Origin: Parabacteroides distasonis | GTDB taxonomy: Bacteria > Bacteroidota > Bacteroidia > Bacteroidales > Tannerellaceae | Assembly: GCF_004793765.1 (NCBI RefSeq) | Contig: NZ_SRYM01000032.1 | Coordinates: 1-44,746 of the forward strand | Direction of reading: 5' to 3' | Length of the DNA stretch: 44,746 bases | Part shown: one piece after another, positions 30,592 through 37,341 of the stretch | Position numbering within the stretch: the stretch's first letter is position 1 | Layout: every line of letters begins with the position of its first letter | Position numbers and translations under genes: made by a program | Notes under the pieces: generated by a model | The model's input: the letters and a program-made list of their open reading frames with translations, nothing else | Told to the model about the DNA's origin: nothing | Database searches by the model: none

Positions 30592-30633
30592 TAAAAAGAA
30601 AAGAGGCCTGCCGCAAGTGCGACAGACCTCTTT
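30592..30633 (-). terminator. trp operon attenuator terminator
   Basis: In the minus-strand transcript, bases 30633 to 30600 form a 16-bp stem around a two-base loop; the only non-Watson-Crick positions are G-U pairs. UUCUUUUUAU follows. It sits 46 bases after the leader peptide stop and about 48 bases before trpB, the expected place for a transcription attenuator. A weaker alternative stem, TATGTA/TACATA at 30641-30664, lies between the leader peptide and this hairpin. Confidence 0.9.
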
Positions 30634-30678
30634 ATATCTTTATGTAGTGCTTTATATATACATACGAGTCTTCGTTCC

Positions 30679-30741
30679 TTACGACCTTTTGAGTTGTACG
30701 GAGCGCCACCACCAATATGTATTTACTACGAATGTTCTCAT
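30679..30741 (-). CDS. trpL: trp leader peptide with three consecutive Trp codons
   Basis: This small reading frame encodes 20 residues: MRTFVVNTYWWWRSVQLKRS. Three TGG codons are adjacent at positions 10-12. It lies downstream of a strong promoter and upstream of a terminator hairpin in front of trpB. The layout is that of a ribosome-mediated attenuator: when charged tRNA-Trp is scarce the ribosome would stall on WWW and change the leader folding so that the terminator does not form. I see this directly in the sequence; I have not identified the antiterminator pairing with confidence. The peptide has no other expected function. Confidence 0.92.
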   Translation of the reverse strand: MRTFVVNTYWWWRSVQLKRS

Positions 30742-30765
30742 GACTCTGTTTTGTTATTACGGCAG

Positions 30766-33508: not shown

Positions 33509-33560
33509 AAAAACACGCTCATGGCGGTAGGATGCCTCCTCCGTTATGAGCGTGTTTGTT
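33509..33560 (+). terminator. Terminator after the TIM-barrel gene
   Basis: AAACACGCTCAT (33511-33522) pairs exactly with ATGAGCGTGTTT (33546-33557), around a loop with a further small GGAG/CTCC-like stem. A and T runs at the outer ends would allow function in either direction. Confidence 0.85.
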
Positions 33561-33692: not shown

Positions 33693-34094
33693 ATGTCTTT
33701 AAAACGTTTTGGTGTCTCATTGGAAGACAATCTGTTGGAATCATTGGATCAATATGTGAATGAGAATGGCTTCGCCAATCGTTCGCAGGCGATTCGTTTT
33801 CTGATAGAGAAGAATGTAGCCGAACGTAAATGGCAATGCAACCATATTGTAGCCGGGACGATCGTGATCATGTATGACCAAGTCAAGAAAGAGATCTCAT
33901 TGAAAATCACGGGTATCCAACAAAATTATAAGGATGTGATCTTGTCGTCTTCCCAGTATTATATCAATCAGAATTTTTGCTTGCATATAGTGACGGTGAT
34001 GGGAACAGCTCACCGCTTGACGGAATTGTCGGATAAGTTGACAACAATCAAAGGCATTAAGCATGGTAAGTTGGTGATGAGCCGGGCGGATTAA
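33693..34094 (+). CDS. NikR-like ribbon-helix-helix regulator lacking the histidine nickel ligands
   Basis: This 133-residue protein has the two-domain NikR layout. An N-terminal ribbon-helix-helix (KRFGVSLEDNLLESLDQYVNENGFANRSQAIRFLIEKNV, residues 4-42) includes the family Asn-Arg-Ser at the start of helix B. A C-terminal ACT-like metal-sensing domain ends in KLTTIKGIKHGKLVMS. By alignment to E. coli NikR, His76, His87 and His89 correspond to Gln77, Gln88 and Tyr90 here; only the Cys95 equivalent (Cys96) remains. So nickel binding of the known kind is unlikely, and the ligand is probably another metal or none. It sits 94 bases upstream of a TonB-dependent receptor gene, with an inverted repeat of NikR-operator spacing between them, and most likely regulates that receptor. 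Confidence 0.85.
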   Translation: MSLKRFGVSLEDNLLESLDQYVNENGFANRSQAIRFLIEKNVAERKWQCNHIVAGTIVIMYDQVKKEISLKITGIQQNYKDVILSSSQYYINQNFCLHIVTVMGTAHRLTELSDKLTTIKGIKHGKLVMSRAD

Positions 34095-34112
34095 TGTTTT
34101 TTTTGCAGGTTT

Positions 34113-34142
34113 GGTAACACGTTTTTTAATATACGTGTTACC
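34113..34142. promoter_or_regulatory. Candidate operator for the NikR-like regulator: GTAACA-N16-TGTTAC
   Basis: GGTAACACGT (34113-34122) and ACGTGTTACC (34133-34142) form a perfect 10-bp inverted repeat. Taken as six-base half-sites, GTAACA (34114-34119) and TGTTAC (34136-34141) are 16 bases apart. That is exactly the layout of the E. coli NikR operator (GTATGA-N16-TCATAC). There is no T tract after it, so a terminator is less likely. It ends 46 bases before the TonB receptor ATG and overlaps a TACCGTTG that resembles a -7 element. Confidence 0.75.
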
Positions 34143-34188
34143 GTTGGGCGTTTAAAATAATAAATAGTATAGATATAACAAGTAGTGT

Positions 34189-36060
34189 ATGAGAAAAGAA
34201 CTTTTACTAGTTTCCGGACTATTGATAGGCTCCATGGCATTTGCGATAGATCCGGCAGAGATTGACAGTCTGATCAATTTAAAAGGGGTGGTGGTTTCCG
34301 CCAACAAGATCCATGTGAACCGGAACAGTGTGCCGTTATCTATCTCGGTCATCGAACGGGAGGAAATTGAGGCTAGTAGTGAGTCGGCGTTGCTTCCTGT
34401 ATTATCGGAGCGAGTACCCGGGCTGTTTGTCACGGAAAAAGGGATTACAGGTTTCGGCGTTTCCGAGGGAGCGGCCGGGACAGTTAATATCCGGGGTGTT
34501 GGACAGAGTAATAAGGTCTTGATGTTGTTCGACGGACAGCCTCAATGGGCCGGTATATTTGGCCATTCGCTTCCGGATACCTATGTGGCTTCGGACGTGG
34601 AAAGGGTGGAGGTGATCCGTGGTCCTGGTTCCTTGTTATATGGCTCGAACGCTATGGGAGGTGTCGTGAATATCATTACCCGCCAGCATAATCAGCCGGG
34701 ACGGCGTACACAAGCCCGTATCATGTACGGCTCGTATAACACCCAGAAGTATATGATTAATAATGGGTACAACATCGGTAACTTTAATAGTTATATCTCA
34801 TTGAATCATGACCGCACGGATGGACATCGTCCGGATTCGAAGTTTCATATCACGAATGGTTTCGCTAAGTTAGGATATAAGATTGATGATCATTATAAGA
34901 TCACGGGAGACGTAAGCTTGGCTAAGTTCAAGAACCAGAATCCGGGAGAGATAACGAATCCGCTTATCGATAATATAATGAATATCTTGCGAGGTACTAC
35001 ATCCTTCGCTTTGGAGAATAATTACGAGAAGACAAGTGGTGCCCTTCGTGCTTTCTACATCTGGGGCCATCATAAGATTGATGATGGGTATAATCCGGGC
35101 GGGACACCTAATCCTTATCTGTTTTATTCGGACGATCATAATGCGGGTTTTTTGCTTTATCAGTCTTTCCGCTTGGTGAAAGGGAATAGTTTTACGATCG
35201 GTATCGATTACAAGAACTGGGGTGGTAACGCATGGCAGGATAGTATCAATGGCAATCAGAATGAGTTGGTGAATAAGACCGTGAACGAGGTAGCCGGATA
35301 TGTTATCATGCAGCAAGATCTATTTGATAAGGTAAGCTTGAACGCCGGGGTTCGTTATGAGCATAACAGCACCTTTGGTGGTGAGTGGATTCCGCAGGCC
35401 GGCTTCACGGTGCGTCCGTTCGAGGGGAACGTGATAAAGGCTTCTTTGTCGAAAGGCTTCCGGAGCCCGAATATACGGGAGATGTATATGTTTCCGCCTC
35501 AGAACCCTGATTTGAAACCGGAAAGCATGATGAACTACGAGGTATCCATCGGGCAGACATTCTTGGAGGGTAATTTGTTTACGGAGTTGACTGCCTTTTT
35601 TATCGACGGGCAGGATATGATCGAGACGACACGTATAGACGGACGTCCTAAGAATGTCAATACGGGTACTTTTACAAATAAAGGTATTGAGTTCGATTCC
35701 CGCTATCAGATTCTCAATAATTTGAGCCTCGATATGAACTATAGCTATTTGCATACGAGCAAGGCCCTGCTGGCGGCTCCGGCGCATAAATTTTTCGCTG
35801 GCGTGATGTATGCCCCGGGGCGTTTCACTTTCAACGTGAACGTACAATCCATTTTCGACCTTTATATCAATATGGCGGACAAGGTGAAAGAGGATTACAC
35901 GGTTTTGAACGCAAAGGTAGCCTACCGTTTCGGTACACGTGATAAAGGCTTGAATCTATTTGTCAAAGGAGATAATTTAACGGCTACCCGTTATTCCGTC
36001 AACGAAGGATTCCCGATGCCGAAGGCGATATTTATGGGAGGTATAGACGTAACTTTCTAG
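34189..36060 (+). CDS. TonB-dependent outer-membrane receptor
   Basis: This 623-residue protein has a signal peptide (residues 1-19, RKELLLVSGLLIGSMAFA). A plug domain follows (about 30-150): VVVSANKIHVNRNSVPLSISVIEREEIE, VPGLFVTEKGITGFGV, VNIRGVGQSNKVLMLFDGQPQ and VERVEVIRGPGSLLYGSNAMGGVVNIITR. A 22-strand-type barrel (GFRSPNIREMYMFPPQNPDLKPESMMNYE is typical) ends in the aromatic FMGGIDVTF. It lacks the N-terminal carboxypeptidase-like extension of SusC proteins and is short, so it resembles metal-chelate or cobalamin-type receptors (BtuB-like), not glycan importers. No SusD partner is present. The upstream NikR-like gene and operator suggest control by metal supply. The actual ligand is not determined. 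Confidence 0.92.
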   Translation: MRKELLLVSGLLIGSMAFAIDPAEIDSLINLKGVVVSANKIHVNRNSVPLSISVIEREEIEASSESALLPVLSERVPGLFVTEKGITGFGVSEGAAGTVNIRGVGQSNKVLMLFDGQPQWAGIFGHSLPDTYVASDVERVEVIRGPGSLLYGSNAMGGVVNIITRQHNQPGRRTQARIMYGSYNTQKYMINNGYNIGNFNSYISLNHDRTDGHRPDSKFHITNGFAKLGYKIDDHYKITGDVSLAKFKNQNPGEITNPLIDNIMNILRGTTSFALENNYEKTSGALRAFYIWGHHKIDDGYNPGGTPNPYLFYSDDHNAGFLLYQSFRLVKGNSFTIGIDYKNWGGNAWQDSINGNQNELVNKTVNEVAGYVIMQQDLFDKVSLNAGVRYEHNSTFGGEWIPQAGFTVRPFEGNVIKASLSKGFRSPNIREMYMFPPQNPDLKPESMMNYEVSIGQTFLEGNLFTELTAFFIDGQDMIETTRIDGRPKNVNTGTFTNKGIEFDSRYQILNNLSLDMNYSYLHTSKALLAAPAHKFFAGVMYAPGRFTFNVNVQSIFDLYINMADKVKEDYTVLNAKVAYRFGTRDKGLNLFVKGDNLTATRYSVNEGFPMPKAIFMGGIDVTF

Positions 36061-36587: not shown

Positions 36588-36636
36588 GGATAGCGACAAG
36601 TTTGATTTATTGGAACATTCGGTTGAGATCCCTTGA

Positions 36637-36670
36637 GTAGTAGAGACGGGGCACGCCCCGTCTCTACTAC
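36637..36670. repeat. GTAGAGAC-type palindrome, copy 3 (perfect, 34 bp)
   Basis: Perfect 16-bp inverted repeat around a 2-base centre, the same core as copy 2 extended by three bases at each end. It lies between the receiver gene and the DUF2148 gene and may serve as a terminator-like stem. Confidence 0.95.
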
Positions 36671-36769
36671 TGGATTTGGATATATGGAATGGGGGAAATG
36701 AATTTTATAATAACTTACGAATTATGAATTCTATCCTCATGTGTTTGCCTTGGTTTCGTATATTTTCGC

Positions 36770-36798: not shown

Positions 36799-37341
36799 AT
36801 GATACAGAACGAAAGAGAAATCAGGCATGAGCTTGTGTTACAGGCCGCACGCCGCATGATGACAGCCGCCCGCACGGCTCCTAAAGGCAAGGGTATTGAT
36901 ATCATAGAGATAGCGATGGTGACGGATGGGGATATCTTACGCCTGTCTGATGAGATGATCCGGATAGCGGCCGAGACCGGATTCAAGTTCCTGCTCCGTG
37001 ACGCCGAGAATATAAAGAGTGCCGACGCCGTGTTGATTATCGGTACCTCCCAGAAAGTACAAGGCTTGAATTGCGCCCATTGCGGTTTCGATACCTGCGT
37101 GGAGAAGCCGGATTTGGTTCCGTGCGCTATTAATTCCGTCGATCTGGGTATCGCAATCGGCTCAGCTTGCGCTACGGCGGCTGACTTGCGTGTGGATACC
37201 CGTGTCATGTTCAGCGCCGGCTTGGCGGCCCAGCGATTGGGGCTGTTGGGAGACTGTAAATGCGTGATGGCGATACCGGTCAGCGCCTCGTCGAAGAACC
37301 CGTTTTTTGATCGTAAACCGAAAGAAGAACCGAAAAACTAG
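36799..37341 (+). CDS. DUF2148 ferredoxin-domain protein
   Basis: This 180-residue protein is a DUF2148 member, predicted in the family to hold an iron-sulphur cluster. The N-terminus is EREIRHELVLQAARRMMTAARTAPKGKGID, a typical opening. Cysteines are arranged as GLNCAHCGFDTCVEK (C-x2-C-x4-C), with further Cys in VPCAIN and SACATAAD, enough for one or two clusters. The reaction is unknown. It is found in many anaerobes, consistent with a redox role. The gene lies six bases before the next one, so the two are very likely translated from one message. A short basic C-terminal tail (DRKPKEEPKN) follows the domain. Confidence 0.85.
   Translation: MIQNEREIRHELVLQAARRMMTAARTAPKGKGIDIIEIAMVTDGDILRLSDEMIRIAAETGFKFLLRDAENIKSADAVLIIGTSQKVQGLNCAHCGFDTCVEKPDLVPCAINSVDLGIAIGSACATAADLRVDTRVMFSAGLAAQRLGLLGDCKCVMAIPVSASSKNPFFDRKPKEEPKN

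Follow-up and report, generated by a model that had tools for sequence, protein, structure and literature searches.

We identified a palindrome, GGTAACACGT-N10-ACGTGTTACC, at 34113-34142 of a 44,746 nt stretch of Parabacteroides distasonis DNA (contig NZ_SRYM01000032.1; in the following called the window), between an ORF for a NikR-like regulator and an ORF for a TonB-dependent outer-membrane receptor. From its sequence and its distribution among relatives, this palindrome is very likely the operator of the receptor gene and consists of two GTRNYAC heptads 14 nt apart. The heptads are likely bound by the NikR-like protein. Since this protein has lost three of the canonical set of four nickel ligands, the signal by which it would switch the receptor should differ from nickel bound at the canonical site. 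Our best reading of the comparisons is a repressor that derives from NikR and acts on a single receptor gene, with a sensor that probably no longer works through the canonical nickel site.

The regulator ORF (33693..34094, +) encodes 133 amino acids with a ribbon-helix-helix and a NikR_C domain, and the receptor ORF (34189..36060, +) encodes 623 amino acids with the Pfam domains Plug and TonB_dep_Rec_b-barrel. Within the perfect 10-bp inverted repeat read from the sequence between them (34113..34142, not assigned to a strand), pattern and comparison delimit a left heptad, GTAACAC (34114..34120), and, 14 nt past it, a right heptad, GTGTTAC (34135..34141). A sequence-only reading had described the palindrome by its six-base half-sites, and GTAACA-N16-TGTTAC is indeed present at 34114-34141 without a mismatch. 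Perfect 10-bp inverted repeats with a loop of 3-30 nt were found at about 11 separate places in the window (25 nested listings), whereas five Markov controls gave 1, 2, 0, 0 and 0. When two mismatches are allowed, the six-base pattern has 2 matches in the window, where 0.89 are expected. Because a repeat of this kind is not rare in the window, the case for an operator rests on comparison with related loci. The GTRNYAC pair occurs once in the window over x = 10-18, at x = 14. Its right heptad is overlapped by TACCGTTG (34139..34146, +), which we call -7-like for having one mismatch to TAnnTTTG, a sequence that we take to be the -7 consensus.

Further elements lie around the two genes. A T run at 34095-34108, right after the regulator's stop codon, is seen in many relatives too and may be part of a terminator or a promoter element. 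Strong inverted repeats at 33511-33557, after a TIM-barrel gene, and at 36636-36671, after a response-regulator gene, are probable terminators. A Bacteroid-trp leader RNA (Rfam RF01692, 93 bits) was detected at 30621-30761 (-) near genes for tryptophan synthase beta and anthranilate synthase, and a DUF2148 ferredoxin-domain protein is encoded downstream at 36799-37341.

We scanned the 250 nt past the regulator in 80 named loci, those encoding close relatives of the regulator. Of the spacings x = 0 to 40 in GTRNYAC-Nx-GTRNYAC, x = 14 yielded 39 pairs and no other more than 3, and an exact N13/14 pair was present in 36/80 loci, compared with a mean of 0.03 and a maximum of 1 in 100 Markov shuffles. 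Apart from its free central base, the heptad reads as a palindrome, GTAACAC and GTGTTAC being one word read from two sides, and for this reason everted as well as direct pairs occur. In the alignment of 37 non-redundant sites, the heptad columns of which were picked by consensus and so give no independent proof of conservation, 18/37 pairs are everted, 9/37 are direct and 10/37 have mixed heptads. On account of the direct repeats, we rejected the idea that conservation applies to the 10-bp palindrome, and the perfect inverted repeat loses the defining role that the sequence-only reading had given it. The alignments indicate instead that the conserved unit is two GTRNYAC heptads with N14 between them (centres 21 bp apart); the additional palindromic bases of the window's site are incidental. 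Half-sites conserved around a variable centre before related receptors, proposed earlier as a check, were found in the 80 loci and in the order set described below. In one locus (L114; also G424 and L061), four GTRNYAC heptads follow the regulator in a row in 21 bp steps, leaving room for more than one tetramer.

The suggestion that the site covers a -7-like element is backed by the relatives as well. An exact TAnnTTTG runs out of the right heptad in 12/37 non-redundant sites, and allowing one mismatch raises this to 16/37, with the window among the one-mismatch cases. Such an overlap is impossible where the right heptad is GTAACAC.

The direct repeats also bear on a reading of the repeat as an RNA hairpin that terminates or attenuates transcription between regulator and receptor. 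The 30-mer has an RNA fold of -13.2 kcal/mol and a T run stands past the regulator's stop codon, but this run precedes the repeat rather than trailing it, and the direct repeats of the nine non-redundant relatives cannot fold that way. The site also precedes receptors that do not lie downstream of the regulator, and no Rfam family matches there. We rejected the hairpin, which we find barely credible, on the direct-repeat relatives and the missing Rfam match.

The putative operator travels with the receptor gene. Where the receptor adjoins the regulator, the site was found with at most one mismatch in 44/46 loci and with 2 mismatches in the other 2, compared with 0/30 loci at up to one mismatch, and 2 at 2 mismatches, where something else adjoins the regulator; the remaining 4 of the 80 named loci are truncated by the contig end. 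Among the 34 loci of these last two groups, six have a receptor within the locus on the opposite strand. Of these, L139 carries an exact site, L100 one with one mismatch and L124 one with two mismatches, and there is no site within 2 mismatches in L131, L136 and L137. The latter three are related termite-gut-type MAG loci in which regulator and receptor are convergent. With the consensus fixed beforehand, we then looked for receptors elsewhere in the genome for the 28 loci without an adjoining receptor (24 examined, 4 at a contig end); 26 genomes were searched and 19 yielded a receptor. The site preceded 16/19 of these receptors (14 exact, 2 with one mismatch), always with N14, 3 of the 16 stemming from contig-end loci, where the receptor may adjoin the regulator. 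Of the 3 misses, one has only 89 nt of upstream sequence, and in the other two the receptor is cut off at a contig end.

Among neighbour families, only the receptor recurred widely (52/80 loci; next family 9/80), and no conserved inner-membrane partner gene stood beside the regulator in the 80 named loci. By its Pfam domains the regulator's likely target is one TonB receptor. Its PDB matches, looked at for a hint of the substrate, are mostly confined to the plug region, with Colicin I receptor and BtuB first.

The site also follows the presence of a NikR gene. Searching 295 genomes of the order for the receptor, we obtained 67 matches, distributed over 66 genomes, and NikR status was assigned from NikR_C, present in 96/393 order genomes; a site was counted when located up to 350 nt upstream with at most one mismatch and a spacing of 12-15. 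It was present before 15/16 receptors from NikR-positive and 0/14 from NikR-negative genomes among the first 30 receptors, and before 13/19 and 0/18, respectively, among the other 37. For all 67 receptors this amounts to 28/35 vs 0/32 (Fisher 1e-12), some order and genus loci overlapping with those that gave the consensus. Seven of the 35 NikR-positive receptors have no site, and 2 of the 28 positives have it about 340 nt upstream. The NikR-negative receptors are 38-50% identical to the query and perhaps not all orthologues, but at the same level of identity NikR-positive ones do have the site. In the set of receptor relatives examined, the site thus recurs only in genomes with a NikR-like regulator; by regulator type, it precedes 18/18 receptors for regulators outside the His-His-His-Cys (HHHC) type and 10/17 for those of the HHHC type. 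Both comparisons, of loci and of receptors, bear out the tie between site, receptor and NikR-family regulator that the sequence-only reading had proposed. They also argue against another regulator binding the site with the NikR-like gene as a bystander, or against NikR activating instead of repressing. That the -7 overlap is not universal, being exact in 12/37 sites, would fit such a scheme, but the site tracks the NikR gene and the heptads equal a NikR half-site listed for deltaproteobacteria in Rodionov et al. 2004, and we consider it quite improbable.

The exact site has one copy in the 4.21 Mb genome, the window's own, compared with 5 for a reversed-pattern control, and the 38 genus genomes contain 0-6 copies each vs 0-11 for the control. 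The pattern being no commoner than its control, no larger regulon is visible, and no further members stand out beyond the receptor site in these 38 genomes. Only 2/78 loci of the window's group have a site before the regulator's own gene; with this site mostly gone, the regulator is likely not autoregulated. Whether or not they have the nickel site, many NikRs at the order level (L248, L253, L298 and others) are preceded by the same operator, located about 28-30 nt before their start. By eye, the HHHC NikRs of L002-L031 adjoin differing uptake genes, coding for periplasmic binding proteins, N-terminally extended TonB receptors and transporter-like membrane proteins, which points to varied targets of the relatives that bear the nickel site.

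The regulator itself has the ribbon-helix-helix and NikR_C architecture of NikR. It matches PF08753 with 80.6 bits (cut-off 22), PF01402, and NCBIfam NF003381 with 114.6 bits (cut-off 105). All 12 PDB sequences matched are NikR, as are the 50 PDB structure matches listed for the AF2 monomer model (pLDDT 91.6). In Helicobacter pylori NikR, nickel is described as bound by His99, His101 and Cys107 together with His88 of another subunit (PMC9860126). By PDB-sequence alignment, the H. pylori positions 88, 99, 101 and 107 correspond to 77, 88, 90 and 96 here, where the window's regulator has Q77, Q88, Y90 and C96 instead of His-His-His-Cys. The square-planar His3Cys nickel site that defines NikR is absent, and we therefore do not class this protein as a nickel-responsive NikR; this loss of three of the four ligands had been overlooked by the sequence-only reading. 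His at 63, 64 and 93 and Glu at 98, common in HHHC proteins, are missing as well. His-His-His-Cys was found in none of the 80 named loci, none of the 30 genus loci and none of the best 120 of 3778 database matches. Among the named loci, position 77 varies (Q in 67/80), and conservation is high for S86 (80/80), Q88 (78/80), Y/F90 (80/80), C96 (78/80) and H98 (77/80); R5, G7, S9, W47 and C49 are each present in 80/80.

For the order set we read 90 of 100 NikR_C matches, leaving out the window's own, two from the same genus, one partial and six weak ones. HHHC was present in 67/90, and the remaining 23 comprised 8 of the Gln-Gln-Tyr-Cys (QQYC) type and 15 in other states. All 23 keep R5, G7, S9, W47 and C49, the first three of which presumably belong to the DNA-contact strand, going by the E. 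coli structure. Judging from these residues and from the site, the regulator looks like a protein that works at DNA as NikR does. C49 is found in 23/23 non-HHHC vs 20/67 HHHC proteins of the order set, and W47 in 80/80 named loci vs 56/67 HHHC proteins. The Trp47 and Cys49 codons were located by sequence alignment and residue counts at 33831..33839 (+). W47 aligns with Trp54 of H. pylori NikR, which is reported to be needed for allostery, nickel and DNA binding being uncoupled without it (PMC9860126). A tree with the ligand columns kept forces at least two nickel-site changes, and with eight pocket columns masked a single non-HHHC clade is compatible with the data (p-AU 0.646). The nickel site would accordingly appear to have been lost once or a few times.

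These patterns speak to the possibility of a dead sensor, that is, a regulator bound constitutively and merely setting a low receptor level. The 15 regulators outside the Gln-Gln-Tyr-Cys type have ligand positions that are nearly all mutually different, as under relaxed constraint, but the window's group conserves the replaced pocket at S86, Q88, Y/F90, C96 and H98, and Trp47 is invariant there, more so than in HHHC proteins. We regard a dead sensor as rather unlikely.

Alternatively, the protein could be an ordinary nickel-responsive NikR that represses a nickel-chelate receptor and holds nickel tightly at other residues. The NCBIfam match is to an equivalog, NCBI names of close relatives read nickel-responsive, and H. 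pylori NikR is reported to control the TonB receptors fecA3 and frpB4 (PMC7055735). The large subunit of [NiFe] hydrogenase scored over the cut-off in 12/38 genus genomes, including the window's, so nickel matters to this cell, and with C96 retained, a metal site of a different kind, perhaps a weak one for nickel, is conceivable. Set against this are the replacement of H77, H88 and H90 by Q, Q and Y, which almost no relative in the group restores, and the additional loss of His 63, 64 and 93 and Glu 98. Moreover, urease alpha and CbiM/NikM occur in 0/38 genus genomes, compared with 34/38 for the regulator; with the hydrogenase in 12/38, the distribution of the regulator does not match that of known nickel enzymes. 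Nickel responsiveness of this kind is improbable in our view, and we favour a NikR-like repressor that would respond to a different signal.

For such a repressor we infer binding, repression and a changed effector as follows. A tetramer would place one ribbon-helix-helix dimer on each heptad, as known NikR structures and the anatomy of the site suggest. With 21 bp, or two turns of B-DNA, between the heptad centres, as in the 28-bp E. coli operator (PMC7055735), both dimers would sit on the same DNA face. Since the -7 element overlaps the right heptad, a bound tetramer would cover the promoter, keep RNA polymerase off it and so repress the receptor. A symmetric dimer could read a palindromic heptad either way round, which would explain how everted and direct pairs replace each other in evolution; that the palindromy of the heptad makes the orientations interchangeable is our own reading. 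The retention of Trp47 suggests that sensor and DNA-binding domain are still coupled. A candidate effector is a ligand or metal that would engage the invariant Cys49 or the remodelled patch of Gln88, Tyr90, Cys96 and His98. Tentatively, and with slightly less than even confidence, we propose a NikR branch without the nickel site that may have acquired a new signal through a Cys49 hinge and a Gln-Tyr-Cys-His pocket, while retaining the old operator code and TonB target, and that databases would mislabel as nickel-responsive.

Metalloregulators get annotated by fold, and here the label is nickel-responsive although the nickel ligands are gone. Because operator and target persist in a common gut genus after this loss, signal and DNA code have come apart. 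This makes the system suitable for asking how metal sensors change their effector, which substrate the TonB receptor takes up, and how many such regulators carry a wrong label in databases. A heptad rule without fixed orientation also explains why both 'forward' and 'reversed' NikR sites have been reported, and offers a means of predicting targets.

Among known systems, we compared the window first with E. coli. The E. coli NikR operator, GTATGA-N16-TCATAC, is described as two half-sites over 28 bp (PMC7055735), the same span as in the window, and the sequence-only reading had noted the shared 16-base separation. The NikR hallmark of two half-sites spanning 27-28 bp is present here, but half-sites of the E. 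coli type, GTATGA, are absent, the window having GTAACA. The E. coli system further differs, by the same account, in its nickel-dependent regulator and its target, nikABCDE (PMC7055735). H. pylori NikR resembles the window's regulator in fold, in the Trp at the domain interface and in the control of TonB receptors (fecA3, frpB4), but has His88, His99, His101 and Cys107 in place of Q, Q, Y and C and, as described, a large regulon (PMC9860126, PMC7055735).

In a literature search with little subscription coverage, we found no paper on a NikR lacking nickel ligands or on NikR in Parabacteroides. The NikR of Geobacter uraniireducens has a distinct binding mode and a related half-site, possibly in tandem. 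As far as this search shows, three points are new: the occurrence of these features together in Bacteroidales, a heptad rule that disregards orientation, and a nickel site lost while operator and target were kept.

The closest counterpart is the deltaproteobacterial NikR signal, given in Rodionov et al. 2004 (PMC545781) as GTGTTAC-[N13/14]-GTAACAC, with the reversed form GTAACAC-[N13/14]-GTGTTAC listed for Desulfotalea. The window shares its half-sites, in reversed orientation, along with the NikR family and a putative metal-uptake target. We therefore rejected a new half-site, and the new DNA specificity suggested by the sequence-only reading falls away, half-site and spacing having been published in that study for deltaproteobacterial NikR. 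For the reversed sites, its table gives N13 and its text N13/14, compared with N14 in the window. The targets reported there are ABC-type nickel transporters and hydrogenase, whereas the window has a single TonB receptor (PMC545781). Unlike the deltaproteobacterial NikR of that study, the window's regulator is without the nickel ligands (PMC545781).
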